Source of the DNA: Bacteroidales bacterium
GTDB taxonomy: Bacteria; Bacteroidota; Bacteroidia; Bacteroidales; UBA12170
Length of the DNA: 35,685 nt
Direction of reading: 5' to 3'
Assembly: GCA_021157585.1 (NCBI GenBank)
Contig: JAGGWH010000056.1
Span: 1 to 35,685, forward strand
The notes below the pieces were generated by a model. The model searched no databases. It was given only the letters and a program-made list of their open reading frames with translations, and was not told the origin of the DNA. This document shows positions 2,056 through 20,598 of the stretch, piece by piece; the first letter of the stretch is position 1; every line of letters begins with the position of its first letter. Made by a program: the position numbers and the translations under genes.

Positions 2056-2151
2056 CGACTGAAATCAATACGCTTATCCAATCTATTGTAACAATAATTC
2101 AATAGTTCTCCACGTTTATTCATTTTACATTATATTATTCTTAAACAAATG

Positions 2152-2188: not shown

Positions 2189-2353
2189 ATGATGCTAGTA
2201 GATGTTCTAATAATGAGCTATGTACTTTTGATGGCTTTACTTGTCCGGAAATCAGAAAAATTACCCAAATTTAGTTTACAAGTTGTATTAATAGGATTAT
2301 TTTTAAGTCCTATAGCCGGCTTTATCAGTTATTATTATTTTCAACGACTGTAA
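2189..2353 (+). CDS. Small two-helix membrane protein, 54 aa
   Basis: A short ORF starts with two consecutive ATG codons and ends at TAA 2351-2353. The product is almost entirely two hydrophobic helices (about residues 2-19 and 30-50) joined by a basic loop RKSEKLPK. The second helix carries LFLSPIAGF, a pattern seen in many tiny Bacteroidota inner-membrane proteins. It fills the gap between the cyclase gene and the convergent uridine kinase gene and has its own -7 element. Function is unknown. The start could also be the second ATG. Coding status rests on composition and context only. Confidence 0.5.
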   Translation: MMLVDVLIMSYVLLMALLVRKSEKLPKFSLQVVLIGLFLSPIAGFISYYYFQRL

Positions 2354-5828: not shown

Positions 5829-5860
5829 AAAAAAAGCAAGTTTGGGAGCTTGCTTTTTTT
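5829..5860. terminator. Intrinsic terminator, A-tract/T-tract flanked, works on both strands
   Basis: Arms 5829-5840 and 5849-5860 pair over 12 bases (AAAAAAAGCAAG with CTTGCTTTTTTT) around an 8-base loop. Because both flanks are A/T runs, it can terminate from either side. On the minus strand it would end the candidate small RNA and insulate mobA. On the plus strand it could stop dsbD read-through. Confidence 0.8.
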
Positions 5861-5927
5861 AAAGGGGAGGGGAGGAATTTAATTTTGCGTCAAATAACAA
5901 AATAATGGGTGAGTATCTATAAAATTC
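5829..5927 (-). ncRNA. Candidate small RNA, copy C of a three-member family
   Basis: The minus strand carries a promoter-like pair (TTTG 5965-5962, 21 bases, TACTTTCG 5940-5933). It is followed by TTGACGCAAA (5893-5884), AAATTCCTCC and a pyrimidine-rich CCCTCCCC. It ends in a near-perfect 12-bp hairpin GCAAGC...GCTTGC with seven T. No sensible ORF is present. The core and the terminator resemble the units at 20300-20383 and 20517-20598. The 5' end is inferred from the -7 box. It could instead be an untranslated leader of mobA, but the terminator would then block that gene. Confidence 0.5.
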
Positions 5928-5932
5928 ATTTA

Positions 5933-5965
5933 CGAAAGTATAATTTCAATTTATATCTCAGCAAA
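5933..5965 (-). promoter_or_regulatory. Promoter-like pair for small-RNA copy C
   Basis: TTTG at 5965-5962 and TACTTTCG at 5940-5933 are separated by 21 bases, allowed for the Bacteroidota consensus, with one mismatch in the -7 box. A dyad GGACGTTCGTC (5982-5972, minus) lies just upstream and could be an operator. Confidence 0.45.
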
Positions 5966-6046
5966 AAATATGACGAACGTCCTAAACAAATTTGCAAACG
6001 TATTGATTTAGCAAATAAACGCTTGTTTTAAAAAAATAAACACAAA

Positions 6047-6076
6047 AAAAGCCGTTGAAAAATATCAACGGCTTTT
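6047..6076 (-). terminator. Intrinsic terminator of the ferredoxin gene
   Basis: Arms 6047-6058 and 6065-6076 form a perfect 12-bp stem (AAAAGCCGTTGA with TCAACGGCTTTT) with a 6-base loop. Read on the minus strand it is followed by a run of T, 21 bases after the ferredoxin stop codon. Confidence 0.88.
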
Positions 6077-6096
6077 AGTTTGAATTAATATCCTTG

Positions 6097-6264
6097 TTAT
6101 TCGGGATGAATTGCTTCTGTTGGACAAACATCTGCACAAGCACCGCAGTCAGTACAAATATCTGGATCGATAACATAAATATCTCCTTCAGTAATAGCTT
6201 CAACCGGACATTCGTCGATACATGTTCCACAAGCAACACAATCGTCATTAATTACATAAGCCAT
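6097..6264 (-). CDS. Small 2[4Fe-4S] ferredoxin, 55 aa
   Basis: A complete short ORF encodes MAYVINDDC... and ends HPE. It has two classic cluster motifs: C9-x2-C12-x2-C15-x3-C19-P and C37-x2-C40-x2-C43-x3-C47-P. This is the clostridial/Bacteroidota 8Fe ferredoxin type, a soluble low-potential electron carrier. It is transcribed divergently from korA-korB, which strongly suggests it accepts electrons from 2-oxoglutarate oxidation or another oxoacid oxidoreductase. It has its own -7 element upstream and a strong terminator downstream, so it is a single-gene transcript. The acidic character (many D and E) is typical. Very little doubt about identity. Confidence 0.95.
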   Translation of the reverse strand: MAYVINDDCVACGTCIDECPVEAITEGDIYVIDPDICTDCGACADVCPTEAIHPE

Positions 6265-6274
6265 AATAATAAAT

Positions 6275-6288
6275 TTTAACGTGTTAAA
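6275..6288. promoter_or_regulatory. Inverted repeat TTTAAC-GT-GTTAAA in the ferredoxin leader
   Basis: Perfect 6-base arms (6275-6280 and 6283-6288) with a 2-base spacer lie between the predicted transcription start (near 6304) and the ferredoxin start codon at 6264. The position suits an operator, but no binding protein can be named and such AT-rich dyads occur by chance. Confidence 0.25.
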
Positions 6289-6308
6289 TAAATTCTATTT
6301 CTTGGCTG

Positions 6309-6316
6309 CAAATGTA
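6309..6316 (-). promoter_or_regulatory. -7 element TACATTTG of the ferredoxin gene
   Basis: On the minus strand TACATTTGC matches the Bacteroidota -7 box 44 bases before the ferredoxin ATG. The expected -33 position has no clear TTTG. Confidence 0.45.
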
Positions 6317-6429
6317 TAAATATTTTACAATTTGAACGATTAATAATAATCATAAATAAAAAGATTTATATTCTTTCTAAATTAAGAAATTGATGGGTGA
6401 ATATTAGATGTTTAAACTAAAAATACAAT

Positions 6430-6437
6430 TACATTTG
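6430..6437 (+). promoter_or_regulatory. -7 element TACATTTG of korA-korB
   Basis: TACATTTGC lies 24 bases before the korA ATG at 6462. The -33 region carries only a weak GATG 19 bases upstream. The ferredoxin and kor promoters are divergent in a 197-base intergenic region, so a shared regulator is possible. Confidence 0.5.
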
Positions 6438-6461
6438 CCTTATCAAAAAAACTAAATTCTA

Positions 6462-8309
6462 ATGACTGATAAAATAGATAAAGTTATTGAACTCGATCAC
6501 GTTGTTATACGGTTTTCTGGCGACTCAGGTGATGGGATGCAGTTAACAGGAACTTTATTCTCCGACACCTCTGCTTTAATGGGAAGTGGCATTTCTACTT
6601 TTCCTGATTACCCAGCAGAGATTAGAGCCCCACAAGGTACTGTTGGAGGCGTTTCTGGTTTCCAAGTTCATTTTGGCCACGATATTAATACTCCTGGCGA
6701 TTATGCCGATGTATTGGTTGCAATGAATCCTGCTGCTTTAAAAGCAACATCCAAATGGGTTAAACAAGGAGGAAGTATTATTGTAGATCGCGATTCATTT
6801 ACAACTAAAAACCTGATAAAAGCAGGTTACAAAACAGATGATCCAATAAAAGAAGATTGTTTAGACCGTTTCAACGTTATTTTGGCTCCAATTTCATCAA
6901 TGACACAAGAGACGTTGAAAGATACCGGAATGGATAACAAAACTATTCTTCGAAGTAAAAACATGTTTGCTTTGGGAATGTGTTATTATTTGTTCAATCG
7001 CGAATTAACTTTCACAGAAAAATTCTTTGAAAGTAAATTCAAAAAAGTTCCTGCTGTTATAGAAGCCAATAAGCTAGTTTTAAAAGCCGGTTATAATTAC
7101 GGTTATAATGTGCAAGAGCTTACACCTTATAAGGTAGCTGCTGAAGAAATTAAATCAGGTGTTTATAGAAATATAAACGGAAATACAGCAACAGCTTGGG
7201 GTTTAACAGCTGCTGCCGAAAAAGCAAACCTTTCTCTTTTCTGCGGATCATATCCTATTACTCCTGCAACAGATATTTTACATGAGTTAGCCAAGTTGAA
7301 AAACTTGGGTGTTAAAACTTTTCAAGCTGAAGATGAAATTGGAGGTATTACTTCAGCAATAGGAGCTAGTTTTGCCGGCAACTTTGCAGTTACTACCACT
7401 TCAGGACCTGGTTTAGCTTTAAAATCAGAAGCTATCGGTTTGGCTGTTATTACGGAACTTCCGTTGGTTATTGTAAATGTTCAACGAGGCGGACCATCAA
7501 CGGGTTTACCTACAAAAACAGAGCAGTCCGATTTAATGCAAGCACTATATGGTAGAAATGGAGAAAGTCCTGTAGCTGTTGTTGCTGCAAGCACACCTTC
7601 TAATTGTTTCCATTACGCGTTTAAAGCAAGTCAAATTGCTCTTGAGCATATGACTCCTGTGGTACTGTTAACAGATGGTTTCCTTGCTAACGGAACTCAG
7701 CCTTGGAGAATTCCAAATATGGAAGATTATCCTGATATACAAGCACCTATTGCAAAAGAAGGAACTAAAGATTATCTTCCTTATCAACGTAACAAAGATA
7801 ATTTCGTTCGTGAATGGGCTATTCCAGGAACTCCAGGATTAGAACATCGTATTGGTGGTTTAGAAAAAATGGATAAAACCGGAACCGTTTCCTATGTCCC
7901 TGAAAATCACCAAGTAATGACGGATCTTCGTGAAAAGAAAATTGCACATATAGTTGCAGATATTCCTGATTTGGAAGTTATTGGTGAAGACGAAGGCGAC
8001 TTACTTGTTGTTGGTTGGGGAGGAACTTATGGACATATTTTAACTGCTGTTCATGATTTACAAAAAGAAGGTAAAAGTATCAGTATGGTACATTTTAATT
8101 ATATCAAGCCTCTACCTGCTAACACTAAAGATATATTTAAAAAATTCAAGAAAATTGTTGTTGCTGAATTAAATAACGGACAATTTGTAAATTATTTAAG
8201 ATTGTCATTACCTGAATTTACCTACTTACAATACAATAAAGTAATGGGATTACCTTTTACGTCTATCGAATTAATGGATAATTTTAATAATATTTTAGAG
8301 GAGAAATAA
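6462..8309 (+). CDS. korA: 2-oxoglutarate:ferredoxin oxidoreductase subunit alpha (gamma-alpha fusion)
   Basis: With KorB it oxidatively decarboxylates 2-oxoglutarate (or makes it reductively) to succinyl-CoA and reduced ferredoxin. The 615-residue chain is the fused form. An N-terminal gamma domain (about 10-200, with FSGDSGDGMQLTG and PDYPAEIRAPQGTVGG) is joined to an alpha domain (about 230-430) holding GSYPITPATDILHEL, the QAEDEIGG region and TTTSGPGLALKSE. A domain II-like C-terminal part ends near residue 610. It is cotranscribed with korB 2 bases downstream. The divergent ferredoxin is the likely electron acceptor. Another 2-oxoacid substrate cannot be excluded from sequence alone. Confidence 0.92.
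   Translation: MTDKIDKVIELDHVVIRFSGDSGDGMQLTGTLFSDTSALMGSGISTFPDYPAEIRAPQGTVGGVSGFQVHFGHDINTPGDYADVLVAMNPAALKATSKWVKQGGSIIVDRDSFTTKNLIKAGYKTDDPIKEDCLDRFNVILAPISSMTQETLKDTGMDNKTILRSKNMFALGMCYYLFNRELTFTEKFFESKFKKVPAVIEANKLVLKAGYNYGYNVQELTPYKVAAEEIKSGVYRNINGNTATAWGLTAAAEKANLSLFCGSYPITPATDILHELAKLKNLGVKTFQAEDEIGGITSAIGASFAGNFAVTTTSGPGLALKSEAIGLAVITELPLVIVNVQRGGPSTGLPTKTEQSDLMQALYGRNGESPVAVVAASTPSNCFHYAFKASQIALEHMTPVVLLTDGFLANGTQPWRIPNMEDYPDIQAPIAKEGTKDYLPYQRNKDNFVREWAIPGTPGLEHRIGGLEKMDKTGTVSYVPENHQVMTDLREKKIAHIVADIPDLEVIGEDEGDLLVVGWGGTYGHILTAVHDLQKEGKSISMVHFNYIKPLPANTKDIFKKFKKIVVAELNNGQFVNYLRLSLPEFTYLQYNKVMGLPFTSIELMDNFNNILEEK
8298..8303 (+). promoter_or_regulatory. Strong Shine-Dalgarno GAGGAG for korB
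   Basis: GAGGAG lies inside the last codons of korA, 8 bases before the korB ATG. Clear SD sites are uncommon in this genome type. Here it probably supports coupled, high-level translation of the second subunit. Confidence 0.6.
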
Positions 8310-8311
8310 TC

Positions 8312-9325
8312 ATGTCAACAGATATAAAATTAACTTTCAAAGATTTTAAAAGCGATCAGGAAGTGCGTTGGTGTGCAGGTTGTGGCGACCATGCTATTTT
8401 GAATTCCGTTCAAAAAGCAATGGCAGCAATGAACATTCCAAAAGAAAAATTTGCAGTAATTGCAGGTATTGGTTGTTCTTCTCGTTTTCCATATTATATG
8501 AATACATATGGCTTCCATACTATTCATGGTCGTGGAGCAGCCATTGCTTCCGGAGTTAAAACTGCTAATCCAGACCTTAGTGTTTGGGTTATTAATGGTG
8601 ATGGTGACGGACTCGCTATTGGAGGAAATCACTTTATTCATCTTAATCGTAGAAACATAGACCTTAATCTTTTATTATTTAATAATGAGATTTATGGTTT
8701 AACTAAAGGTCAGTATTCTCCTACAACAAAAGAGGGAACAAAAACCAAAACATCACCTTATGGAACTATTGAGCATCCTTTTAATCCCGGCGAATTGGTA
8801 TTGGGAGCTGAAGGAAAATATTTTGCTCGTTCTATTGATGTAAATATGAAACTTACACAAGAAATACTATTGAATGCACAAAATCATAAAGGAACTTCAA
8901 TAGTAGAAATATTACAAAACTGTGTGATTTTCTCAAATGGAGTTCATAGTTTTTATACCGATAAAGAAACCAAACTCGATCGTCAACTTATTTTACGTCA
9001 TGGCGAAAAAATGATCTTTGGCAAAAATAACGACAAAGGCATTGTACTGGATGGTTTAAAACTCAAAGTTGTTACTATTGGCGAAAATGGAGTTAGTGAA
9101 GATGATATATTAACACATGATGCTCACGAAGAGAGTCCATTTTTACATTGGATGTTAATCCATATGAAAGGTCCTGATTTTCCAATTGCTTTAGGTGTTA
9201 TCCGCGAGGTAAAAGCATCTACTTATGAGCAAAAAATGGAAGACCAAATTGCCGAAGTAAAAGCTAATTCGTCTATTAAAAATGTTAATGACTTACTTCA
9301 TAGCGGAAGTACATGGACAGTTTAA
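8312..9325 (+). CDS. korB: 2-oxoglutarate:ferredoxin oxidoreductase subunit beta (TPP-binding)
   Basis: The catalytic beta subunit binds thiamine diphosphate and an electron-relay [4Fe-4S] cluster. Cysteines C21 and C24 in WCAGCGD, the GIGCSSR cysteine and the LQNC cysteine fit the four cluster ligands of the family. The TPP motif runs from GDGDG (near residue 97) to the NN of LLLFNNEIYG about 30 residues later. HTIHGRGAAIASGVK is the usual neighbouring block. At 337 residues it is the standard KorB size, with no fused ferredoxin domain, so an external ferredoxin such as the one divergent from korA is needed. Confidence 0.92.
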   Translation: MSTDIKLTFKDFKSDQEVRWCAGCGDHAILNSVQKAMAAMNIPKEKFAVIAGIGCSSRFPYYMNTYGFHTIHGRGAAIASGVKTANPDLSVWVINGDGDGLAIGGNHFIHLNRRNIDLNLLLFNNEIYGLTKGQYSPTTKEGTKTKTSPYGTIEHPFNPGELVLGAEGKYFARSIDVNMKLTQEILLNAQNHKGTSIVEILQNCVIFSNGVHSFYTDKETKLDRQLILRHGEKMIFGKNNDKGIVLDGLKLKVVTIGENGVSEDDILTHDAHEESPFLHWMLIHMKGPDFPIALGVIREVKASTYEQKMEDQIAEVKANSSIKNVNDLLHSGSTWTV

Positions 9326-9346
9326 TTGGCATTATTAAATAAACAC

Positions 9347-9379
9347 AAAAAGCCTGTCAAAATTTTTGGCGGGCTTTTT
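9347..9379 (+). terminator. Intrinsic terminator after korB
   Basis: Arms 9347-9358 and 9368-9379 pair over 12 bases (AAAAAGCCTGTC with GGCGGGCTTTTT, two G-T wobbles) around a 9-base loop, followed by T-rich sequence. It lies 22 bases after the korB stop and separates the kor operon from the regulator gene. Confidence 0.85.
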
Positions 9380-9413
9380 CTTTTATATTCCTATATTTAC
9401 CAAAAAATTTGAT

Positions 9414-10097
9414 ATGGAAAATGAAGGTTGCTTAAATTGCAAGAGTGATGCTAATTGTTTTGGTGCATTAAATGATAATGAACTATTATCCATTGATAAA
9501 AATAAAGTAGCGGTAATCTTTAAAAAAGGCGAAACTATTGCAAAACAAGGTTCTTTTGCCTCCGGCTTAATCTATATCAGAAAAGGAATGGTAAAGCTTT
9601 ATAAAGAAGGAGGCGATAACAATAATCTAATTCTAAATATTTTTGGAGATGATGAATTAGTAGGTATCTCTTCTATTTACGGTGATAATGTTTTTAATTA
9701 CTCTATAGTTGCCATAGAAAAATCTGAGATATTTTTAATAGATATATCTATACTAAAAGAACTCATACAGACTAATGCTAAATTTGCTACAGCAATATTA
9801 AAACGCTCTAACAGAAATACTCTCAGAGCATACAACCAAATGTACAATCTTACACACAAACAGCTTAATGGAAGAATGGCTTCCGCGTTGATTTTTCTTT
9901 CTAATGAAGTTTATGAAAGCAACAAATTTAAACTTACACTCAGCCGAAAAGACTTAGCCGACTTTACCGGAATGTCTACTATGGGTGCTATTAGAGTTCT
10001 TAACAGTTTTAAAACGGATAAAATTATTACCGATCAAAAAGGAATTTTAGAAATTTTGGACATAGAAGCTCTCAAAATTATTGCCAAGGTTGGTTAG
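9414..10097 (+). CDS. Crp/Fnr-family transcription regulator with FNR-like cysteine triad
   Basis: 227 residues: a cyclic-nucleotide-binding-like beta barrel (about 20-130), a long dimer helix and a winged helix-turn-helix (about 165-220, with LSRKDLADFTGMSTMGAIR). The N-terminus carries C6-x2-C9-x5-C15, the same spacing as the C20/C23/C29 ligands of E. coli FNR. The protein contains no other cysteine, so a fourth ligand would have to be non-Cys, as in Bacillus Fnr. The frame runs upstream to a TTG at 9366, but that lies inside the korB terminator, so the ATG at 9414 is preferred. Its position next to korAB and ferredoxin suggests redox or oxygen control, which is inference. Confidence 0.85.
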   Translation: MENEGCLNCKSDANCFGALNDNELLSIDKNKVAVIFKKGETIAKQGSFASGLIYIRKGMVKLYKEGGDNNNLILNIFGDDELVGISSIYGDNVFNYSIVAIEKSEIFLIDISILKELIQTNAKFATAILKRSNRNTLRAYNQMYNLTHKQLNGRMASALIFLSNEVYESNKFKLTLSRKDLADFTGMSTMGAIRVLNSFKTDKIITDQKGILEILDIEALKIIAKVG

Positions 10098-10124
10098 TAA
10101 TATAATTATTGATACTTTAGAGGA

Positions 10125-13100
10125 GTGATTACCAGCTCCAAAAATACCGATTCTTCCGAACAAATTCCTCAAAAGAAAAAACGCTTTTGGCTGAAATTAT
10201 CTTTAGCTATTGCTTTAATTTTAATACTCATTGGTTTTAGCTTTAACATATTTTCTAATTTCTTTTTTAATACTGTTATTACTAAATCCTTTTCAAAATA
10301 CACAAAGCAACAGTATTCTCTTAATTTTAAAGATTTAAAAATTAATTTGATTACCGGAAAAATTATATTTTTCGATACGTATATTAATCCAACGGCAAAC
10401 ACAGACAGCTTAAGTAAATCAAAAATCAGCTTTTATTCTGATACTCTTTTGTTGCAAAATATAAATTTCCAAACCTTGTGGAGAAACAAAAACTTAGAAC
10501 TTAAAAACATATATATTCACCACTTAAAACTAGAAATAAAGCAAAAAAGTAAGGAAAATAAAAAGAATATAAATTTACCTTTAAACAACTATCTTAATAA
10601 ATTACAAATTGCTAACATTGAAGTAATAAAGGCCGAAATAAAATACAAACAAAATACAGATTCTGTCTACATCCCAAATTTAGCTTTTCAACTTCAAGAG
10701 TTTCATATTGATTCGCTTAGAGATACTGTAAAAAGTAACCGATTCCATTATGGTAACATTAATTTATTTTTAAAGAACCAACAATTACAGTTACCGGATA
10801 AAAGCCATACTCTTTATTGTAAAAATTTAAAACTATCAAGTAAAGAAAAATATTTTGAGCTTGATGGATTTAATATAAAACCTTCTGTAGGAAGCAATAA
10901 ACATACACGTTTTACAGCAGATATTTCAGAACTAAAAATAGAAGATTTTGAATTTGATTCACTAATTATAAAAAAACAGCTGCTTGCTAAAAACCTACTA
11001 CTCAATGTAAACCACTTAAATATTAAGCTAAATAGTAAATCGAAGAAAATAATAAATACCACGCTTAAAAAGCAAATAAATGTATTTTTTAAAGATAACT
11101 TTAGAAAAGTTTCTGTTGATAGCAGTAGAATAATAATTGCTGATAGTCGAATAAATTTACCCGATAATAAACAAATTAGCTTCTCTAAAAAAAGCAGTCT
11201 ATTTATTAATAATTTTAGGTTTAATCCAAAGAATAAAACTGAATTCTCTTTTACTGACGGTTCTCTCTCCCTTAAGAAACTGTATTTTTATAATCCCCTT
11301 AACAAACAAAAACTACAATTTAGTCAGGCAAATATAAACTACAAAAACCAAAGTTTAAATATTTTTGATATCGACTATATTTCCGATTCAAGTACTAACA
11401 TCAGTATTAAGTTAAATGAAATTAAACTGGAGAATGTTAATTGGGGAAAATTTCGAAATGAAAATAAATTATTAGCCACAAGATTATATTTAAAAGAAGG
11501 TAATATAAATCAGCAATACGCTTTAAACCCAATGTCTTCTTTTAATTTAAATAAAATTGATTCTCTTATATTTCCCATCTTTCAATTGCTTAAAATTAAA
11601 ACTATTCAATTTGATAATTGGAATTACCAGCTCGCATCTAAAGCAATCAAAGCTAAAAATATTAATCTTCAGCTCGAAGATTTTCAAATTCCAAGCGACT
11701 CTACTTTAGCTTTCAAAACCTTCTCTAATTTTAATACTAAAATTCAACAATTTAGCTGGATAAACAAAGACCAGACTCATCATTATTTAACTAAAGGAAT
11801 TGAATTAAACAGTCGGAAGAAAAATATAAATATCGAAGAAATCCAAAGCTTTCCGCGATGGAAAACCCTTAATAATAAGCTAATAGAGAATAAAGCACGT
11901 TTTAAAATATTTGGTAATAATATAGAAATAAAAACCGCAAAGCCTTTTTGTCAGATAAATTTAAACGACACTCTTATTTTAAGTAAGTTTTTTATCGATT
12001 CGCTTAATCTAAAACAATTTGACAAAAATATAAACGGAAAAAAATTAGAGTTAGAAATACCTCCTACTAAAATAATATCCTTTAAGTTAAGCCAAGGTAA
12101 TTTTGCAGCATATAACGATAGCTCTGTATTAAGCCGCTTAGCTCAAATAAACGGAATTCAGTTTCGGGGTGATTCTTTAGAAATATATAACGACAGTCTG
12201 TTTTCAATAAACTATAAACATTTGTTGGCAATTACAAAAAATGGATTCTATCAAAACGAAGATCAGGGATTAAGCTTTAATTTTAAAAAAATTAATTATA
12301 ATTCAGAAGATAGAACAATAGATATACATCAAATTAAAGCCGAAATATTATCTGATGGAAATGACAAAACATTTAGCCATAAACTAAATTCAAAACTACT
12401 ACAACTCAAAGATTTAGACTATAACTTATTTTTTCAACGAAATTTGATTTCGGCTAAAGAATTTAATTTGAGTTCGCCAAAACTTATAAGTAAAACTCGA
12501 TCTGAAAACAAACTGCAAATAAATTCTAAAGATATTTTTTCGGTCGAAAATTTACAACATCTTCCTTATTTAAAATTTGATCGCTTTATTATTCGCGATT
12601 TCACTTGGCTGGCGACGTACACTGTTAAGGGAATTACTAATATCACAACTTATGAAAAAGCAAACTTTGAAGCTATAGATTTCCGTTTAAGTCATCGCTC
12701 TTTTGCCAATCCCGAACGTTTATTTTTCTCTCAATCAATTAATTTCAGTATAAAAAATCTTAGGCAGCATATACAAAATGGAAATTATTTATTGATGGTT
12801 GATAATATTAATTTTTCGTCTATACAAAAACAAATGGATTTTAATAAAGTTCAGTTCTACACCTTACAAAAGTCAGAACGAAACAATTATAATTTTACAA
12901 TAGATCAAATTTCTTTTCATAAAATAAATTTTGCCGATTTTCAACGCGATTACAGCCTTACAATAGATAATATACTGATTAATAAACCTATAACTAAATT
13001 ACAACTCTTTAATTTAGATGAAGGTTCAACAATAAATAGCTTAAGTGCTATGGATCTTTATCCAACAATAAAGAACTTTTTCTCGAAAATTACATTGAAT

Positions 13101-14291
13101 AAAATAGATGTTAGAAATATGAATCTTAAGTTAGAAATCCCTAAAGGAAATAGTACCGATACTTATACTTTAGGACACCTTAACTTACAAGTACGTAATT
13201 TTATACTTGATTCTACAGCCAAGGCTTTTCAAAATAATCGCTTTTTCTATTCTCAAAACACTCTCATTCATTTACAAAATTATTCAGCTAATATTGATAA
13301 TAATCTTTATCGGATAAATTTTAGAGATTTGCGTCTATCAACACTTAACAGAATAATAGAAATTGATTCCTTTCGGCTTAAACCACAATATAACTATGCC
13401 GATTTTGCAAAACGCTTACAATATCAAACCGATCGCTTCGACTTAGAAATAGACAAAATAAAACTCTTAGGCATAGATTTCCAAGACGCTATTTTCCGAC
13501 AAAAATACATCGTCCATAAAGCAGAAATTGATAATCTTAAAGGAGAAGTTTATCGCGATGCATTATATCCACGATTACCCGACTATTATCCGGCAAATCC
13601 TATTCAACGCCTACTATCACTGCCATATTTTATCCAATTTGATACAGTATATCTGAATAATGCATATTTTGCTTATAAAGAAAAAGGGAATCGTACACCG
13701 GAGCCCGGTCATATTTTCTTCAATCAGTTAAATGCTCAGATATTAAATGTTTCCAATAATCCTGATTTTATAAAATTTGGAGGAAATACTGTTCTTAATG
13801 CACAAGCTCTGCTTATGGGTAAAGGAAAACTTATTTTAGATGTGCATTTTCCATTGCTTAAACAGGGAAAAGAATTCAAATTAAATGCAAATATGTCTCA
13901 AATAGAGATGGATGATTTAGAACCAATATTACGACCACTTGCATTAATTCAAGCACGTAGCGGAACCATTAAATCTGTTGAATTATCTGTTGAAGCAAAC
14001 GACGATTATGCCTTTGGAAACATGTTAATGCTCTACAATAATATGAAAATAGAAGTTTTGAATAAGTCGATGAAAAAAGGATTTTTTAGTTCCTTATTTG
14101 CCAATGCACTTATTAGAACGGGAAATACAAATACCATATTTCCCCGAAGAGGCCCTATCTATTTTGAACGGAACAAAGAACGCTCCCTATTCAACTATTG
14201 GGCAGAAATTAGCATTTTAGGAATGAAAACAAGTATGGGGCTTGCCGATAGGCGAATCGCTAAAAAAGTAAAGAAATTACAAAAGAAATAA
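10125..14291 (+). CDS. Very large AsmA-like (DUF748-type) membrane-anchored protein, 1388 aa
   Basis: A basic N-terminus is followed by one transmembrane helix (about residues 22-48). More than 1300 residues of beta-rich, Lys/Asn/Ile-rich sequence follow, with recurring strand-turn units. The final 250 residues (GKGKLILDVHFPLL, DLEPILRPLALIQARSGTIK, then an AsmA-like tail) resemble the C-terminal module of AsmA/TamB-type proteins. These proteins bridge the periplasm and handle lipid or outer-membrane traffic. That role is inferred from fold class only. The start is a GTG with AGAGGA touching it. The next codon, ATT, would be better spaced but is a rare start. The gene begins 27 bases after the regulator gene, so cotranscription is likely. 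Confidence 0.72.
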   Translation: MITSSKNTDSSEQIPQKKKRFWLKLSLAIALILILIGFSFNIFSNFFFNTVITKSFSKYTKQQYSLNFKDLKINLITGKIIFFDTYINPTANTDSLSKSKISFYSDTLLLQNINFQTLWRNKNLELKNIYIHHLKLEIKQKSKENKKNINLPLNNYLNKLQIANIEVIKAEIKYKQNTDSVYIPNLAFQLQEFHIDSLRDTVKSNRFHYGNINLFLKNQQLQLPDKSHTLYCKNLKLSSKEKYFELDGFNIKPSVGSNKHTRFTADISELKIEDFEFDSLIIKKQLLAKNLLLNVNHLNIKLNSKSKKIINTTLKKQINVFFKDNFRKVSVDSSRIIIADSRINLPDNKQISFSKKSSLFINNFRFNPKNKTEFSFTDGSLSLKKLYFYNPLNKQKLQFSQANINYKNQSLNIFDIDYISDSSTNISIKLNEIKLENVNWGKFRNENKLLATRLYLKEGNINQQYALNPMSSFNLNKIDSLIFPIFQLLKIKTIQFDNWNYQLASKAIKAKNINLQLEDFQIPSDSTLAFKTFSNFNTKIQQFSWINKDQTHHYLTKGIELNSRKKNINIEEIQSFPRWKTLNNKLIENKARFKIFGNNIEIKTAKPFCQINLNDTLILSKFFIDSLNLKQFDKNINGKKLELEIPPTKIISFKLSQGNFAAYNDSSVLSRLAQINGIQFRGDSLEIYNDSLFSINYKHLLAITKNGFYQNEDQGLSFNFKKINYNSEDRTIDIHQIKAEILSDGNDKTFSHKLNSKLLQLKDLDYNLFFQRNLISAKEFNLSSPKLISKTRSENKLQINSKDIFSVENLQHLPYLKFDRFIIRDFTWLATYTVKGITNITTYEKANFEAIDFRLSHRSFANPERLFFSQSINFSIKNLRQHIQNGNYLLMVDNINFSSIQKQMDFNKVQFYTLQKSERNNYNFTIDQISFHKINFADFQRDYSLTIDNILINKPITKLQLFNLDEGSTINSLSAMDLYPTIKNFFSKITLNKIDVRNMNLKLEIPKGNSTDTYTLGHLNLQVRNFILDSTAKAFQNNRFFYSQNTLIHLQNYSANIDNNLYRINFRDLRLSTLNRIIEIDSFRLKPQYNYADFAKRLQYQTDRFDLEIDKIKLLGIDFQDAIFRQKYIVHKAEIDNLKGEVYRDALYPRLPDYYPANPIQRLLSLPYFIQFDTVYLNNAYFAYKEKGNRTPEPGHIFFNQLNAQILNVSNNPDFIKFGGNTVLNAQALLMGKGKLILDVHFPLLKQGKEFKLNANMSQIEMDDLEPILRPLALIQARSGTIKSVELSVEANDDYAFGNMLMLYNNMKIEVLNKSMKKGFFSSLFANALIRTGNTNTIFPRRGPIYFERNKERSLFNYWAEISILGMKTSMGLADRRIAKKVKKLQKK

Positions 14292-14323
14292 CACCAATCA
14301 ATTTGATGCATTTTTGATATAAG

Positions 14324-14722
14324 CTACAAAAACCCTAAATCGAGCTGAGCTTCTTCACTCATCATATCCTTATCCCAAGGCGGTTCAAAAGTCATTTCAA
14401 TATGCACATCTTTAACACCTTCAATAGCTTTTACCTTTTCGTGAACTTCATTAGGCATTGACTCTGCAACCGGACAATTAGGTGCCGTTAAAGTCATAAC
14501 AATTTCCACTTGATAATCTTCTGCAACATTCACTTCGTAGATAAGACCTAAATCGAAAATGTTAACCGGAATTTCAGGATCGAAAATAGATTTAAGTACA
14601 TTTAAGATCTTTTTTTCGAGCTCCATTTTTGTTGTAATAATAGGTTTTTCACCCATTACTTTTTCCTCTTTCAGCTTTTCTTTAGCGACTTCTTTTTTCT
14701 CTTTTTTACCCCAACCAAACAT
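14324..14722 (-). CDS. sufT: MIP18/DUF59-family Fe-S assembly protein (SufT-like)
   Basis: The core (about residues 33-120) is a MIP18/DUF59 domain with IFDPEIPVNIFDLGLIY, the conserved cysteine in TAPNCP and the FEPPWDKDMMSEEA ending. The family acts in cluster maturation and transfer to target proteins. It is the last gene of the suf operon, 10 bases after sufE, which supports the role. The first 30 residues form an unusual strongly charged extension (MFGWGKKEKKEV and more Lys/Glu). An internal Met at residue 23 (MGEKPII) could be an alternative start. It converges with the AsmA-like gene. Confidence 0.85.
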   Translation of the reverse strand: MFGWGKKEKKEVAKEKLKEEKVMGEKPIITTKMELEKKILNVLKSIFDPEIPVNIFDLGLIYEVNVAEDYQVEIVMTLTAPNCPVAESMPNEVHEKVKAIEGVKDVHIEMTFEPPWDKDMMSEEAQLDLGFL

Positions 14723-14732
14723 AATTCATAAT

Positions 14733-15155
14733 TTAATTTCCTTTAGCTTGAAAAGCCAAAGCATACAATTTAATTTGTTTAATCATTGAAAGTAATCCGT
14801 TTGCTCTTGTTGGAGATAAATGCTCTTGCAAGCCAATTTGATTTAAAAATTCTAAGTCAGCATTAATGATATCTTCCGGTTTTTCACCAGACAAAATGTT
14901 TACTAAAAGATAAACAATACCTTTTGTTATTACAGCATCGCTATCCGCTCTCAATATCATTTTTCCATCTTCCATCTCAGCTGAAATCCAAACACGCGAC
15001 TGACAGCCAGTAATCAAATGACTTTCATTTCTATATTTATCATCAATAATTGGCAAAGACTGACCTAATTCTATCAGATAATTATATTTATCCATCCAGT
15101 CTTCAAAGAGGCCGAATTCTTCAATTATATTATTTTCTTTTTCTTGAATTGTCAT
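14733..15155 (-). CDS. sufE: SufE, sulfur-transfer partner of SufS
   Basis: Accepts persulfide sulfur from the cysteine desulfurase SufS and passes it to the SufBCD scaffold. The 140-residue protein carries the acceptor cysteine C51 in GCQSRVW, the same position as in E. coli SufE. The surrounding pattern LITGCQSRVW is standard, as is the C-terminal LSPTRANGL. It follows sufS by 27 bases and precedes the sufT-like gene by 10. No anomalies seen. Confidence 0.94.
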   Translation of the reverse strand: MTIQEKENNIIEEFGLFEDWMDKYNYLIELGQSLPIIDDKYRNESHLITGCQSRVWISAEMEDGKMILRADSDAVITKGIVYLLVNILSGEKPEDIINADLEFLNQIGLQEHLSPTRANGLLSMIKQIKLYALAFQAKGN

Positions 15156-15182
15156 TTCTAATTTTCTTACAAAATTAATGTT

Positions 15183-16403
15183 TTAACCAAACATTTCAAT
15201 GGTTTTTTGTATCGCTTTAACCAAACGATCAATCTCTTCTTTAGTATTGTAAGCAGCAAAAGAAGCCCTTATTGTTCCCCGTATTCCAAAGCGTTTCATA
15301 ATGGGTTCTGCACAATGATTCCCTGTACGAACAGCAATTCCAAATTGATCTAATATTGTTCCTACATCGTAGGGATGAATACCATCAATCAAAAATGAAA
15401 GTACGGCTGCCTTATTTTTAGCATTTCCAATAATTCGAATACGATCGATTTTCTGGAATTCAGCAGTTGCATAGCTTAAAACTTCATTCTCTATCTTCGC
15501 TAAATTATCAATACCTTCTTTTTGCATAAATTCAATAGCAGCTTCAAAGCCTAAGACATCAGCAACATTAGGCGTTCCTGCTTCAAATTTAAAAGGAAGT
15601 TCATTGTAAGTCGTTTTTTCAAAACTCACACTTTCTATCATCTCTCCTCCACCTTGATAAGGCTGAAGTTCTTCTAATAATACCTTCTTACCATATAAAA
15701 CCCCTATACCCATAGGTCCATACATTTTATGGCTCGAAAAAGCATAAAAATCGCAATCCAATTGCTGAACATCAACAGCCAAATGAGCAACTGCTTGAGC
15801 ACCATCAATTAAAACCAAACTTTTATTTTGATGTGCTAAATCAATTATTTCTTTTATAGGATTTAATGTTCCCAAAGCATTTGAGACATGACCAACAGCC
15901 ACTAAACAGGTACGTTCGTTCAACAAACCAGCATATTCGTTCATCAAAAGCTCACCTTTATCATTTACAGGAATAACACGAAGTTTTGCTTTTTTTCGTT
16001 CACAAAGCATTTGCCAAGGAACAATGTTAGAGTGATGCTCCAATTCGGTAACGATAATCTCGTCACCTTCCTTAATAAAAGTTTCTCCCAAAGAAAAAGC
16101 CAACAAATTAATAGAATCTGTAGTTCCTTTAGTGAAGACAATCTCCTTAGAACTATTAGCATTAATAAAATCCTTTACTTTTATTCGTGCTTGCTCATAA
16201 GCATCGGTAGCTCTTTGCGATAAATGATGTACTCCACGATGGATATTGCTATTGAAATTAGTATAGTAATTACTAATTCTATCAATTACCATTTGAGGTT
16301 TCTGAGTAGTTGCTGCATTATCAAAATACACCAAAGGATATTTATTTATCTTCTGTTTTAAGATTGGGAATTGCGCAATAATTTGTTCTTGGTTTGCATC
16401 CAT
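15183..16403 (-). CDS. sufS: SufS-type cysteine desulfurase
   Basis: A PLP enzyme that converts cysteine to alanine and delivers sulfur for Fe-S clusters. The 406-residue chain has the Schiff-base lysine K226 in SSHKMYGP and the persulfide cysteine C364 in RTGNHCAEP, numbered as in E. coli SufS. Other landmarks are FDNAATTQKP at the N-terminus, ELEHHSNIVPW near residue 120 and DGAQAVAH near 200. The short active-site loop marks a group II (SufS/CsdA) enzyme. It lies 4 bases downstream of sufD. Confidence 0.95.
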   Translation of the reverse strand: MDANQEQIIAQFPILKQKINKYPLVYFDNAATTQKPQMVIDRISNYYTNFNSNIHRGVHHLSQRATDAYEQARIKVKDFINANSSKEIVFTKGTTDSINLLAFSLGETFIKEGDEIIVTELEHHSNIVPWQMLCERKKAKLRVIPVNDKGELLMNEYAGLLNERTCLVAVGHVSNALGTLNPIKEIIDLAHQNKSLVLIDGAQAVAHLAVDVQQLDCDFYAFSSHKMYGPMGIGVLYGKKVLLEELQPYQGGGEMIESVSFEKTTYNELPFKFEAGTPNVADVLGFEAAIEFMQKEGIDNLAKIENEVLSYATAEFQKIDRIRIIGNAKNKAAVLSFLIDGIHPYDVGTILDQFGIAVRTGNHCAEPIMKRFGIRGTIRASFAAYNTKEEIDRLVKAIQKTIEMFG

Positions 16404-16407
16404 AAAA

Positions 16408-17814
16408 CTAAATTTTACTCATATCTATTTCAAAATTATATTCTTCAGGAGTACTACAGTGCAATACACATTGATCGCAGATAGAAAGCTCACCACGTAG
16501 ACGTTTCTTTATCATATCTTGGATACGATCGCGCAAAGAATCTATTTTAATTTCTTGAGTTACTTCAGCAGCAAAGGCGTACATCAATAACATTCTAGCA
16601 TTGTCTTCGCTAATACCTCTTTGGCGAATATAAAACATAGCACTTTCGTCGAGCTGACCAACGGTAGCACCATGACTACATTTAACATCATCGGCATAAA
16701 TCTCCAAAAAAGGTTTAGTGTTAATCATTGCCTTATCTGTAAGGATAATATTTGCATTATTTTGGAATGCCAATGTTTTCTGTGCATCCTTACGAACCAA
16801 AATGTGCCCTTTAAAAACGGCATGTGCATAATCGTCTAATATACCTTTAAACAACTCGTTACTTGTGCAATTTGGAACCGCATGATCTACATAAACTTGA
16901 TTATCGATATGCTGATTTTTATCGGCAAGATACACACCTCTAATATCGGCATTAGCACCTTCGCCATTAAATTTGGTATATGTTTCGTTTCTTATTAAAC
17001 CGCCATTAAGTATAAAACTATTAGTATTTAATCTTGAATCACGTGCTTGCTCAACAGCTAAACTATTAATAAGGCTGGAGTTATTATTTATGTTTTGCAA
17101 ACGATAATGATCGAGAGAAGCATTAGCTCCTAAAACAATTTCTGTAACCGAATTAGTTAAACTTCTTTTATAGTTATAAGAGTCGTCACACTGAATAATC
17201 TTAAGTTGACTATTCTCTTCAAGTATAATAAGGTTACGATTTTGCACAAATACATCATTGATTGTACCTACTGCATTTATAAGTTGTATTGGCTTTTCGG
17301 AAATAACATTTTTTGGTACGTATACAAAAAGACCATCTAAAAACAAGGCCGTATTTAAAGCATTAAAAGCATTATTTTCTGTTTTTGCATATTTACCAAA
17401 ATGCTTTGCAATCAATTCAGGATATTTATCAAAAGCTGCACTAAGACTTCCTACAATTACCCCATCTTTTAAAGTATAAATCGGGCTTTCATTATAAACA
17501 AATCTGCCTTTATAAAGATTTACCACAAAAGCATCTAAATCGTTTATATCGCATTCAAAGACTTCATCTAAAGCATCTTGCATTTGTAAATCTTCAGAGA
17601 CCATAGTATAATCAAACGATAAAACTGTTTTCAAATCGGTATTTCGCCATTTTTCGAGTTTTTTATGTGGAAAGCCCAAACGCTTAAATTCGGCTAAAGC
17701 AAGTGTTCTCTGCTTTTGTAAACCGGAAAAAGCCTTTCCATCCTTTTCTACAACAGCATCAAACCATTGTGAAATTTTGTTTAGCGCAGGTATTGTATTT
17801 ATTTCCTGACTCAT
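16408..17814 (-). CDS. sufD: SufD, scaffold subunit, with an extra C-terminal Cys motif
   Basis: SufD pairs with SufB and SufC to form the Fe-S scaffold complex. The 468-residue chain shows the usual divergent N-terminus (KLEKWRNTDL near residue 56), the beta-helix core, and the conserved block DDVKCSHGATVGQLDE with the functional histidine. Unlike E. coli SufD, it ends in a tail with C446-x2-C449-x3-C453 (CDQCVLHC). This tail could bind metal or a cluster, which is inference. The spacing to sufC is 2 bases, so translation is probably coupled. Confidence 0.92.
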   Translation of the reverse strand: MSQEINTIPALNKISQWFDAVVEKDGKAFSGLQKQRTLALAEFKRLGFPHKKLEKWRNTDLKTVLSFDYTMVSEDLQMQDALDEVFECDINDLDAFVVNLYKGRFVYNESPIYTLKDGVIVGSLSAAFDKYPELIAKHFGKYAKTENNAFNALNTALFLDGLFVYVPKNVISEKPIQLINAVGTINDVFVQNRNLIILEENSQLKIIQCDDSYNYKRSLTNSVTEIVLGANASLDHYRLQNINNNSSLINSLAVEQARDSRLNTNSFILNGGLIRNETYTKFNGEGANADIRGVYLADKNQHIDNQVYVDHAVPNCTSNELFKGILDDYAHAVFKGHILVRKDAQKTLAFQNNANIILTDKAMINTKPFLEIYADDVKCSHGATVGQLDESAMFYIRQRGISEDNARMLLMYAFAAEVTQEIKIDSLRDRIQDMIKKRLRGELSICDQCVLHCSTPEEYNFEIDMSKI

Positions 17815-17816
17815 AT

Positions 17817-18575
17817 CTAAGGCTTTTCTATTTCTTTTTTAATCCAATCGTAGCCTTTTTCTTCTAATTCCAAAGCTAACTCTTTTCCACCTGAAAGCAC
17901 TACTTCTCCTTCAAAAAGAACATGAACAAAATCAGGTACTATATAGTCTAATAAACGCTGATAGTGTGTGATAACTACCGTTGCATTTTCACTAGTTTTT
18001 AATTTATTAACCCCATTAGCTACAATTCGTAAGGCATCAATATCTAAACCCGAATCTGTTTCATCTAAAATAGCTAATTTAGGTTCGAGCATAGCCATTT
18101 GAAAAATCTCATTTTTCTTTTTCTCACCACCTGAAAAGCCCTCATTAACAGAGCGATTTGTGAGTTTAGAATTAATTTCCACCAATGCTTTTTTTTCTGC
18201 CATACGAGCCAAAAATTCCTTAGCAGCAATTGGTTCTTCGCCATGGTATCTACGTATCTCATTTAAAGCAGTACGCATAAAATTTGTCATGCTAACCCCG
18301 GGTATCTCAACAGGATATTGAAAACCTAAGAATATACCTTCTTGAGCGCGCACTTCTGGGGGCATTTCTGAAATATCTTTTCCATTGAAAAGTATTTCAC
18401 CTTGAGTAATCTCATAACCTTCTTTACCGGCAACCACAGCAGCCAATGTACTTTTACCGGTTCCGTTCGGACCCATAATGGCATGAACTTCGCCCTTATT
18501 TACTTCAAGATTAACACCTTTTAATATTTCTTTTCCATTAATGGAAACATGAAGATTTTTAATTTGTAATAACAT
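17817..18575 (-). CDS. sufC: SufC, ABC-type ATPase of the Suf scaffold
   Basis: A soluble ATPase that drives conformational change of SufBCD. The 252 residues contain the Walker A GPNGTGKST (about 36-44), the Q-loop region GFQYPVEIPG, the signature FSGGEKKKNE and the Walker B LAILDETDSGLD, which is the SufC variant of the DE box. The gene lies 47 bases after sufB. A small GC-rich hairpin-forming stretch (18591-18606) lies in that gap and might set relative mRNA stability. Confidence 0.95.
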   Translation of the reverse strand: MLLQIKNLHVSINGKEILKGVNLEVNKGEVHAIMGPNGTGKSTLAAVVAGKEGYEITQGEILFNGKDISEMPPEVRAQEGIFLGFQYPVEIPGVSMTNFMRTALNEIRRYHGEEPIAAKEFLARMAEKKALVEINSKLTNRSVNEGFSGGEKKKNEIFQMAMLEPKLAILDETDSGLDIDALRIVANGVNKLKTSENATVVITHYQRLLDYIVPDFVHVLFEGEVVLSGGKELALELEEKGYDWIKKEIEKP

Positions 18576-18622
18576 TCTTTATTTATTTAGTCCCGAAAAC
18601 CGGGGATAAAATTCTTTCTTAT

Positions 18623-20071
18623 TTAACCAACACTACCTTCTAAGCTAATACTCAAGAGCTTTTGTGCTTCAACGGCAAACTCCATTGGCAGTTTATTCAA
18701 TACTTCTTTGGCGTAGCCGTTAACAATAAGACTTACAGCCGATTCCTGACTAATACCACGTTGTTGACAATAAAACAATTGGTCTTCAGAAATTTTAGAT
18801 GTTGTTGCTTCGTGTTCAATTATGGAACTTTTATTTGCGCCTTCAATATAGGGAAAAGTATGAGCTCCGCATTTATCGCCTAATAAAAGACTATCGCATT
18901 GAGAAAAATTCCTGCTGTTTGTTGCACGCTTAGTCATTTTAACCAAACCTCGATAACTATTATGACTTTTTCCGGCTGAGATACCCTTAGATATTATTGT
19001 ACTTCTGGTATTTTTCCCCAAATGAATCATTTTTGAACCGGTATCGGCTTGTTGATAATTATTAGTGACTGCAACAGAATAAAATTCTCCTACAGAATTA
19101 TCGCCAATTAGTATACAACTTGGATATTTCCACGTAATTGCAGAACCTGTTTCTACCTGTGTCCATGAAATTTTAGAATGATCTCCTTTACAAATACCTC
19201 GTTTGGTTACAAAATTAAAGATACCGCCCTTCCCCTCTTTATTACCCGGATACCAGTTTTGTACTGTTGAGTATTTTACTTCAGCATCTTTCATGGTGAT
19301 TATTTCCACAACGGCAGCATGTAATTGATTCTCATCACGTTGAGGGGCGGTGCAGCCTTCCATATAACTTACATAGCCACCTTCGTCAGCAATAAGAAGC
19401 GTACGTTCAAACTGACCAGTATTGGCAGCATTTATACGAAAATACGTTGATAATTCCATAGGACTACGAACTCCTTTTGGAATATAACAAAACGATCCAT
19501 CGCTAAATACAGCAGAATTTAATGCAGCAAAAAAGTTATCACCCGGAGGCACAGCCATTCCAAGATATTTCTTAACCAAATCAGGGTGATTTTGTACTGC
19601 TTCGCTAAAAGAGCAAAATATAATACCATATTTTGCTAATGTATCTGTAAAAGTCGTTTTTACCGAAACACTATCAATAACAGCATCCACAGCAACCCCC
19701 GATAAATGTTTTTGCTCTTCAAGAGAAATTCCCAATTTATTAAAAGTATCTATTAACTCCGGATCTACCTCATCAAGACTTTTTAGTTCCTTTTTCTTTT
19801 TAGGAGCAGCATAATATATAATCTCCTGAAAATCAATCTCCGGTATTTTCAAATGTGCCCAGTCAGGCTGCTCCATTTCTTTCCACTTCTTAAAAGCTTT
19901 TAAACGATATTCTAAAAGCCAATCAGGTTCGTTTTTTTTAGCGGAAATAAACCGAACAGTATCTTCATTCAATCCTTTAATTGCTGTTTCAGTTTCAATA
20001 TCTGTAACAAAGCCATATTTGTACTCGCTTTGAGTAAGTTTGTCTATCAGTTGTTTTTCATCCCGAGCCAT
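18623..20071 (-). CDS. sufB: SufB, Fe-S scaffold subunit
   Basis: The main cluster-building subunit of SufBC2D. The protein has 482 residues with the family blocks [19 protein letters not shown] (about 195-215), [19 protein letters not shown] (about 255-275) and [20 protein letters not shown] (about 400), which holds the cysteine proposed as sulfur acceptor, followed by EHEATTSKI. It is the first gene of the operon sufB-C-D-S-E-T, preceded by a promoter at 20106-20136. No IscR/SufR-type regulator gene or recognisable binding site is present. Confidence 0.95.
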
Positions 20072-20105
20072 ATGATCTTATTTAGATTGATTTAAAATAA
20101 GTCTG

Positions 20106-20136
20106 CAAATTTACGAATTTTATTCTTTTTAGCATA
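20106..20136 (-). promoter_or_regulatory. Promoter of the suf operon (TATG-N19-TAAATTTG)
   Basis: On the minus strand TATG (20136-20133) and TAAATTTGC (20113-20105) are separated by 19 bases. The -7 box is a full match and the -33 box matches 3 of 4. The start of transcription would be near 20100, about 28 bases before the sufB ATG. Confidence 0.65.
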
Positions 20137-20299
20137 GCTGATTATGTAATTAGTCCTAAATGTATGTTAATTTTTATATATGATCAGATTTCTACCAAAT
20201 CCCATACGCTAAACCCATAAAACTACGCGTTTATTAAATAAATAAGGACGTTCATTCATTAGTATAATATTAGCCTTGTTTATATGTTACATTTGAAAC

Positions 20300-20383
20300 T
20301 TCTTTACCTCCGAGTAATTTGACGCATTATAAATTTCTCTCCAACAAGAAAAGCGAACGTATCGGTTTGCTTTTCTGTTTTTA
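20300..20383 (+). ncRNA. Candidate small RNA, copy A of a three-member family
   Basis: A -7-like TACATTTG (20288-20295) precedes a unit of about 80 bases. It holds TTACCTCC (20305-20312), TTTGACGCA (20318-20326) and AAATTTCTCTCC, and ends in a 12-bp hairpin (20347-20358 with 20365-20376, 6-base loop) with a T-rich tail. There is no clear -33 box. The core order TTGACGCA, AAAT, CTCC, terminator is shared with copies B and C. TTACCTCC is complementary to a Shine-Dalgarno sequence, so an mRNA-pairing role is conceivable. Confidence 0.45.
20347..20380 (+). terminator. Hairpin terminator of small-RNA copy A
   Basis: AGAAAAGCGAAC pairs with GTTTGCTTTTCT (one G-T wobble) around a 6-base loop, and a T-rich tail follows on the plus strand. 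Confidence 0.65.
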
Positions 20384-20516
20384 TGTTAAACATACAAAAA
20401 CGTTCGTCCTAAAATTATCAACGTTTATTCATAATCTACATACGCTAATACAATGGTCAATAACATTGGTTCATTTACAAAATCATTGAATAGTATCTAA
20501 CTTATATTCGCAACAG

Positions 20517-20598
20517 CATTAGAGATTAAACCTAACAGCTTAAATTGACGCAAAGGAAATCTCCATCTAAAGCAAGCCTATGGCTTGCTTTTTTTTAT
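20517..20598 (+). ncRNA. Candidate small RNA, copy B of a three-member family
   Basis: A TATATTCG element (20503-20510, one mismatch to the -7 consensus) precedes a unit with TTGACGCAAA (20545-20554) and AAATCTCC. A perfect 10-bp stem follows (20569-20578 with 20582-20591, 3-base loop) with eight T in a row. The unit sits downstream of copy A in the same orientation and converges with the sigma factor gene. The T-run on the plus strand only shows that the terminator serves a plus-strand transcript, although no gene lies upstream on that strand. This is good evidence for an RNA gene here. Confidence 0.5.
20569..20596 (+). terminator. Strong intrinsic terminator of small-RNA copy B
   Basis: AAAGCAAGCC pairs perfectly with GGCTTGCTTT, closed by the 3-base loop TAT, followed by a T-run on the plus strand. 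Confidence 0.85.

Follow-up and report, generated by a model that had tools for sequence, protein, structure and literature searches.

The stretch of DNA considered here (the window) is the whole of contig JAGGWH010000056.1, 35,685 nucleotides from a Bacteroidales bacterium of the GTDB lineage UBA12170 (assembly GCA_021157585.1; 2.93 Mb in 183 contigs, estimated completeness 95.5%), in which it is contig C56. It contains three short units, A, B and C, which an earlier sequence-only reading had described as paralogous and small-RNA-like, with a shared order of elements: a -7 box, a TTGACGCA core and a terminator hairpin. These elements do lie where that reading had placed them (Table 1); each unit opens at a Bacteroidota-type -7 box and closes with a T-tailed hairpin. 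As argued below from comparative sequence analysis, the units probably belong to a multicopy small-RNA family that serves as the RNA arm of a LytTR regulon.

Unit A sits past a hairpin and T-run (approximately 6047-6079, by eye) that follows a ferredoxin gene, and 40 nt separate the end of its own terminator from a same-strand MobA-like gene (5190-5789). Units B and C have no same-direction gene upstream, bearing out the claim that their terminators have no preceding gene to serve. They run into the 3' end of an opposite-strand ECF sigma gene, and the next gene in their own direction begins only at 22719. A scan of the window found no open reading frame (ORF) of note and no tRNA in the three unit regions. 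Rfam gave no match in the window at gathering scores, including Flavo-1, Bacteroidales-1 and Bacteroidetes-2, the families named by the sequence-only reading as worth checking; at E<=1, in four loci with units, the sole match was rliD (E 0.18, L274 594-632), away from the units. The core TTGACGCA occurs at three places only in the window, one in each unit, a number that is unremarkable alone (shuffle mean 0.81, with at least three in 6 of 100 shuffles).

Conservation of the units in related genomes

The comparison group consists of 11 genomes assigned to one genus, G000 to G010, with G000 being the genome of the window; by SufB, the nearest named relatives of G000 are uncultured Bacteroidales at no more than 85% identity, which makes a Bacteroidales-type bacterium more likely than a flavobacterium. 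Two models were used: R1, a sequence-only promoter model trained on 13 units from six genomes (A of the window, and B and C of G000, G001, G004, G007, G008 and G009), and R2, an RNA model of the B/A unit type. Altogether, 26 units were located in 10 of the 11 genomes, with as many as four consecutive units at a locus (the unit ends of G008_C and G007_A were adjusted by hand). B and C are both kept in all five relatives with a readable sufB to ECF-sigma region (G001, G004, G007, G008 and G009), while this region has another gene order in G010, G002 and G006 and meets a contig edge in G003 and G005. Outside the training set, R1 and R2 found A in five relatives (G001, G004, G005, G007 and G008), four tandem units in G010 and two units each in G002 and G003. 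R2 matches all 13 of these untrained units at E<=1 (from 1.4e-6 at best to 0.75 at worst). Among the R1 matches listed for the group, which extend down to about E 0.49, one lies near 11 of the 13; G003_2 and G010_4 are without a listed one. Exact patterns containing TTGACGCA matched in G000 only and were too strict for this purpose. The earlier proposal of a paralogous small-RNA family is supported as the best reading: units recur in 10 of 11 genomes, often in tandem, and they come with a promoter and a terminator but have no ORF in common.

The G009 genome has the A promoter, which is followed by a repeat element and then the contig end. This element of roughly 150 bases (..CCGATTAGTCAACTAAATGCCGCATATTTTCACTTCGTTC..) is present at two G009 units (L016 and L267, both on G009:C210), where it lies inside the B array upstream of sufB, replacing the distal repeats, as well as directly after the A promoter.

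Beyond the group, R2 was applied to 80 sufB loci of other genomes and returned two matches at E<=1, one of which (L050) shows neither core nor array by eye, the other being hairpin-only. In 393 genomes of the order, 61 have a match at E<=0.02, 57 of them outside the group. Inspection of 26 such outside loci (L276-L301) revealed a core-like string in five, at the match itself in one (L277), and a simple array test was passed by none; for these reasons the outside matches were rejected as further RNA units and treated as terminators. The similarity of the units to each other could in principle be chance, or stem from ordinary terminators or from pieces of a mobile element, as TTGACGCA alone is within chance and R2 alone matches many terminators in the order. 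However, this explanation is scarcely credible and already contradicted by conservation: the promoters share a gapless register, the units hold orthologous positions in relatives, and R1 and R2 coincide independently, while the repeat element at the G009 units interrupts them.

Phased repeats and the candidate regulator

Upstream of every unit is a row of direct repeats, approximately TACGTTTRTACATT, with an exact 21-bp spacing and a fixed distance to the -7 box. These phased repeats were overlooked by the sequence-only reading, as were the wider promoter family and the survival of the linker in two units without a core, both described below. A MAFFT alignment of the 13 training promoters is gapless across 92 columns and the repeats end at the same distance from the -7 box, although the sequences are related, and so are not 13 independent cases, and the -7 boxes were picked by eye as the anchor. 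In the 13 units, RCGYY pairs occur 17 times at distance 21 and 9 times at distance 42, and no other distance has more than two; among 2000 mononucleotide shuffles, the count at each distance between 6 and 59 never rose above 2. The stricter pair RCGTTY-N15-RCGTTY is found four times in the window, each time upstream of one of the three units (shuffle mean 0.03, maximum 1 in 100 shuffles). Genome-wide it has 10 matches, compared with 13 for a reversed control, which puts most pairs away from the unit promoters at chance level. Of the six located elsewhere, the one at C89:10433 belongs to the promoter of a ComEA-like gene. Some registers are weak, namely the proximal repeat of C in the window and the two distal repeats of G009 B.

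Table 1 Predicted units, their promoters and a further promoter match in the window (R1, promoter model)
Feature	Position	Strand	Description
Promoter of unit A	5933..6024	-	Three 21-bp-phased repeats GCGTTTATT, ACGTTTGCA, ACGTTCGTC and -7 box TATACTTTCG; R1 50.1 bits (training sequence)
Unit A, predicted RNA of ~99 nt	5829..5927	-	Core TTGACGCA (5886-5893), CU-rich linker TTCCTCCCCTCCCCTTT, hairpin and T-run; same-locus homologues in G001, G004, G005, G007, G008
Promoter of unit B	20204..20295	+	Phased repeats and -7 box TTACATTTG; R1 55.6 bits (training sequence)
Unit B, predicted RNA of ~83 nt	20300..20382	+	Core (20319-20326), TTTCTCTCC linker, covarying hairpin, T-run
Promoter of unit C	20398..20510	+	Four 21-bp-phased registers (two strong, two weak) and -7 box TTATATTCG; R1 46.5 bits (training sequence)
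Unit C, predicted RNA of ~81 nt	20516..20596	+	GAGATT/AATCTC pairing around core (20545-20552), then GCAAGCC/GGCTTGC hairpin, T-run
Weak R1 match upstream of 54-aa ORF	2062..2136	+	E 0.015 in the window, 0.123 in the genome; better in G004, G005, G008, G009
Unlisted 54-aa ORF	2189..2353	+	MMLVDVLIMSYVLLMALLVRK..., apparently membrane-spanning; between guanylate-cyclase-like and uridine-kinase-like genes; similar small ORFs in G004, G005, G008, G009

The repeat consensus takes the forms TACGTTTRTACATT and ACGTTYGTAC, with an ACGTTYGTC-like half-site that, when compared by eye, resembles the LytTR-type ACGTTCGTC and the AlgR site CCGTTCGTC. LytTR proteins are described as binding 9-bp repeats with a 12-bp spacer (PMC2766830, in the part of the text available), and CCGTTCGTC is given as the site bound by AlgR (PMC4064291, likewise in part). 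Both the 21-bp period and the half-site match published LytTR sites; the repeat geometry is, to judge by sequence, the 9 + 12 bp pattern of LytTR response regulators. In the available parts of the same two sources, the sites of AgrA, VirR, ComE, AlgR and SilA likewise have direct 9-bp half-sites about 12 bp apart. They usually comprise two repeats, whereas most arrays here have three (up to four registers), placed at a constant distance from a Bacteroidota -7 box. The repeats might instead be bound by a regulator of another family that recognizes direct repeats two helical turns apart, and the fact that no LytTR gene carries the sites would fit such a regulator; with a period and a half-site that both agree with published LytTR sites, we consider this unlikely.

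If the regulator is of the LytTR type, the list of candidates is short. There are four LytTR genes in G000 (C46, C72, C73 and C153) and at least two in each of the 11 genomes. The C72-type, a response regulator beside a REC-HATPase protein, was the initial choice because none of the six genomes that have B and C lacks it; it is found in 9 of the 11 genomes and missing from G003 and G005. It was displaced once a tree of 30 selected rows, a subset of the LytTR genes, showed a C153-type clade (support 99/98) in 10 of the 11 genomes, missing from G007, which is 74% complete. The C153-type is an orphan and also accounts for G003 and G005; on these grounds it may, as a first guess, be the regulator of the unit promoters. 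C46-type rows also occur in 10 of the 11 genomes, as counted from a listing of matches and not from the tree. The repeat array was found at the loci of none of these candidates. As an observation in its own right, the C72-type gene of G000 (L137 5511-7461) has as its neighbour the gene of an unusual protein in which a HATPase domain comes after a receiver domain, and this pair of genes is kept in other genomes of the group.

Wider promoter family

R1 matches without an RNA unit stand before the same protein families, grouped by eye from translations, in several genomes. A ComEA-like helix-hairpin-helix protein encoded downstream of guaA-like genes has such a promoter in five genomes (G000, E 1.2e-9; G001, 0.0064; G004, 7.8e-9; G008, 7.5e-6; G009, 0.0013). 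Others include a 64-residue protein (..ALFGWKYVKD..) in G000, G004, G008 and G009; a membrane-type protein of 52 to 54 residues in G000 (weak), G004, G005, G008 and G009; a Cys-rich protein of 78 to 79 residues in G000 and G004; and SSB in G000 and G005. Single cases include a CapD-like protein in G000. Pfam assigns HHH_3 to the ComEA-like protein and SSB to SSB, while NCBIfam ComEA models match the former below their cut-offs. A ComEA-like protein and SSB under what may be one promoter type hint at a possible link to DNA uptake. Within the window, the 54-residue ORF behind a weak R1 match (Table 1) has no Pfam or NCBIfam match and is a likely regulon member, judging by the better promoter matches and similar small ORFs in relatives.

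When R1 was run on 295 genomes of the order, 48 had matches at E<=0.01, 44 of them outside the group, and in the six outside genomes whose loci were read all matches stood before protein genes. At two outside loci, L199 (G230:C99) and L195 (G057:C148), R1 picks out near-identical promoters in tandem, with 21-bp repeats, ahead of genes for large secreted-type proteins; these may form another LytTR regulon. Elsewhere in the window, a gene for a CRP-like regulator is followed by a 1388-residue ORF (10125-14291) that has no Pfam match at E<=0.001.

Anatomy and proposed action of the predicted RNAs

From -7 box to T-run, the 26 units measure approximately 83 to 111 bases. The earlier statement that none holds an ORF extends to the whole set, in which no coding frame is shared: an ORF of at least 8 codons is present in 6 of the 26 units, and only one is common to two units, the near-identical G002_1 and G003_1. 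An ACGC core is kept in 22 units and TTGACACA stands in 2, while the exact TTGACGCA is present in 10 of the 26 (these counts were made by hand, an automatic pattern match in G008_A being false). After the core, a simple pattern finds a pyrimidine-rich linker (TTTCTCTCC, CTTCTCTCC, TTTCTCCCC and similar) in 20 of the 26. The C-rich part pointed out by the sequence-only reading, which might pair with Shine-Dalgarno regions, is also kept in many units; in G004_A and G008_A the CU-rich linker persists despite loss of the core. The terminator hairpin of the B/A type shows compensatory change: for 8 of 16 pairs both partners differ in at least one sequence, as against 1 of 9 pairs for the C-type, and a CCC is contained in the terminator loop of 20 of the 26 units.

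It could be that only the promoters are functional, and that the RNAs are by-products or decoys, for example short transcripts disturbing the opposite-strand sigma gene or obstructing its 3' end. The promoter arrays are indeed better kept than much of the RNA, whose core is lost in two units, and B and C do converge on the sigma gene. Against this, terminator pairs are kept through compensatory change, the tandem units in G002, G003 and G010, which lie at a different locus, have near-identical ACGCATTA...CTTCTCTCC parts, and neither these tandems nor unit A face the sigma gene. On balance we regard this reading as quite unlikely.

The units could also be leaders (attenuator or riboswitch-like) of the genes that follow. 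This notion draws on unit A, whose terminator is closely followed by the MobA-like gene; a similar gene is close behind in G004, G005 and G008 and after the last tandem unit of G010. However, the gene after unit A of G001 is not MobA-like, the units of G002 and G003 precede a different, membrane-type ORF, and every tandem unit has its own promoter and terminator. B and C are not leaders because there is no sense-direction gene before 22719, and their arrangement facing the 3' end of the sigma gene is kept in five relatives. A leader function for the family is very unlikely. Since B and C cannot be leaders, and A could be one in some genomes only, action in trans by pairing is the most likely mode of the predicted RNAs.

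In the multicopy small-RNA reading, which we prefer, each RNA of approximately 80 to 105 nt would be transcribed alone from its own promoter and ended by an intrinsic terminator. A LytTR-type response regulator would bind the tandem 21-bp direct repeats and activate each promoter, so that several RNAs would rise together with the few mRNAs having the same promoter. The RNAs would then act in trans, pairing to mRNAs through unstructured CU- or C-rich parts (linker, 5' loop and terminator loop) next to the TTRACGCA core. The promoter geometry, conservation, terminators, lack of a shared ORF and wider promoter set can be read directly from the sequences; that the units are transcribed, that a LytTR protein binds the repeats and that it activates rather than represses is what we infer, and antisense action and its targets are a guess. 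The reverse complement of core and linker would read as a Shine-Dalgarno sequence followed by a start codon (GGAGAGAAGTAAATTTAATGCGT).

Several results weigh against this reading. A search of the 11 genomes for Shine-Dalgarno plus start-codon targets found 21 places, 9 of which are RNA genes, leaving 12 compared with 10 for the control. The predicted openness of the core (0.67) and of the CU linker (0.69) only slightly exceeds the pre-terminator mean of 0.60, a comparison without shuffle control. Two units, G004_A and G008_A, no longer have the core, and in G001_B and G007_B it is altered. No unit was found with R1 or R2 in G006, a genome that is 99% complete and has LytTR orthologues. The R1 array has no match at E<=10 in nine LytTR loci, and only one weak partial match (E 0.05) in 20 further ones. 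Lastly, the 44 outside-group genomes with R1 matches exceed the E-value expectation, and the weak matches may include other LytTR regulons or noise. The negative start-codon test does leave room for pairing by the CU-rich part alone.

Response regulators of the LytTR family are known to drive regulatory RNAs, as in AgrA-RNAIII, VirR-VR-RNA and FasA-FasX. Those are single RNAs of Firmicutes, unlike the multicopy units of Bacteroidota described here, to which they have no sequence relation. Several homologous RNA copies under one two-component regulator are found in Qrr (LuxO), the csRNAs (CiaR) and LhrC (LisR), but these involve other regulator families and phyla and show no sequence relation to the units (no Rfam match). 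The CcsR or 'cuckoo' RNAs of alphaproteobacteria carry a CU-rich motif. Like the units, they are tandem homologous small RNAs, and they have a stress-type regulon (PMC10253847, in the part of the text available). Processing of a single RpoH-dependent transcript, which also includes a DUF1127 gene, yields the CcsR RNAs, whereas each unit here has its own promoter and terminator. Among the 20 window proteins scanned, none showed a DUF1127 domain. A literature search, with most subscription journals outside its coverage, found no paper on a LytTR-controlled small RNA in Bacteroidota, where, to our knowledge, small RNAs with a recognizable upstream regulator are poorly known. Response-regulator-driven multicopy small RNAs are thus known from other phyla, and the units appear to be a new case of this kind, under a different switch.

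In Bacteroidia, ribosomes do not use Shine-Dalgarno pairing even though their 16S RNA carries the anti-sequence (PMC9976891, as far as the available text goes), and for this reason an RNA whose ends pair with Shine-Dalgarno sequences may be directed at rare mRNAs. One could go further, at low probability, and picture the RNAs as the post-transcriptional arm of a competence-like LytTR programme for DNA uptake (the ComEA-like protein and SSB), acting through anti-Shine-Dalgarno-like CU-rich parts on the few mRNAs that have a real Shine-Dalgarno sequence, in a phylum where the anti-Shine-Dalgarno of the ribosome is hidden. Should the preferred reading be true, this genus would offer a multicopy RNA family with a readable on-switch, whose regulator could be sought among a few candidates. 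The promoter model would then predict the remaining members of the regulon and, with them, a possible connection to DNA uptake. The family would also make it possible to test whether an RNA that pairs with Shine-Dalgarno sequences is of use in cells whose ribosomes do without such pairing.

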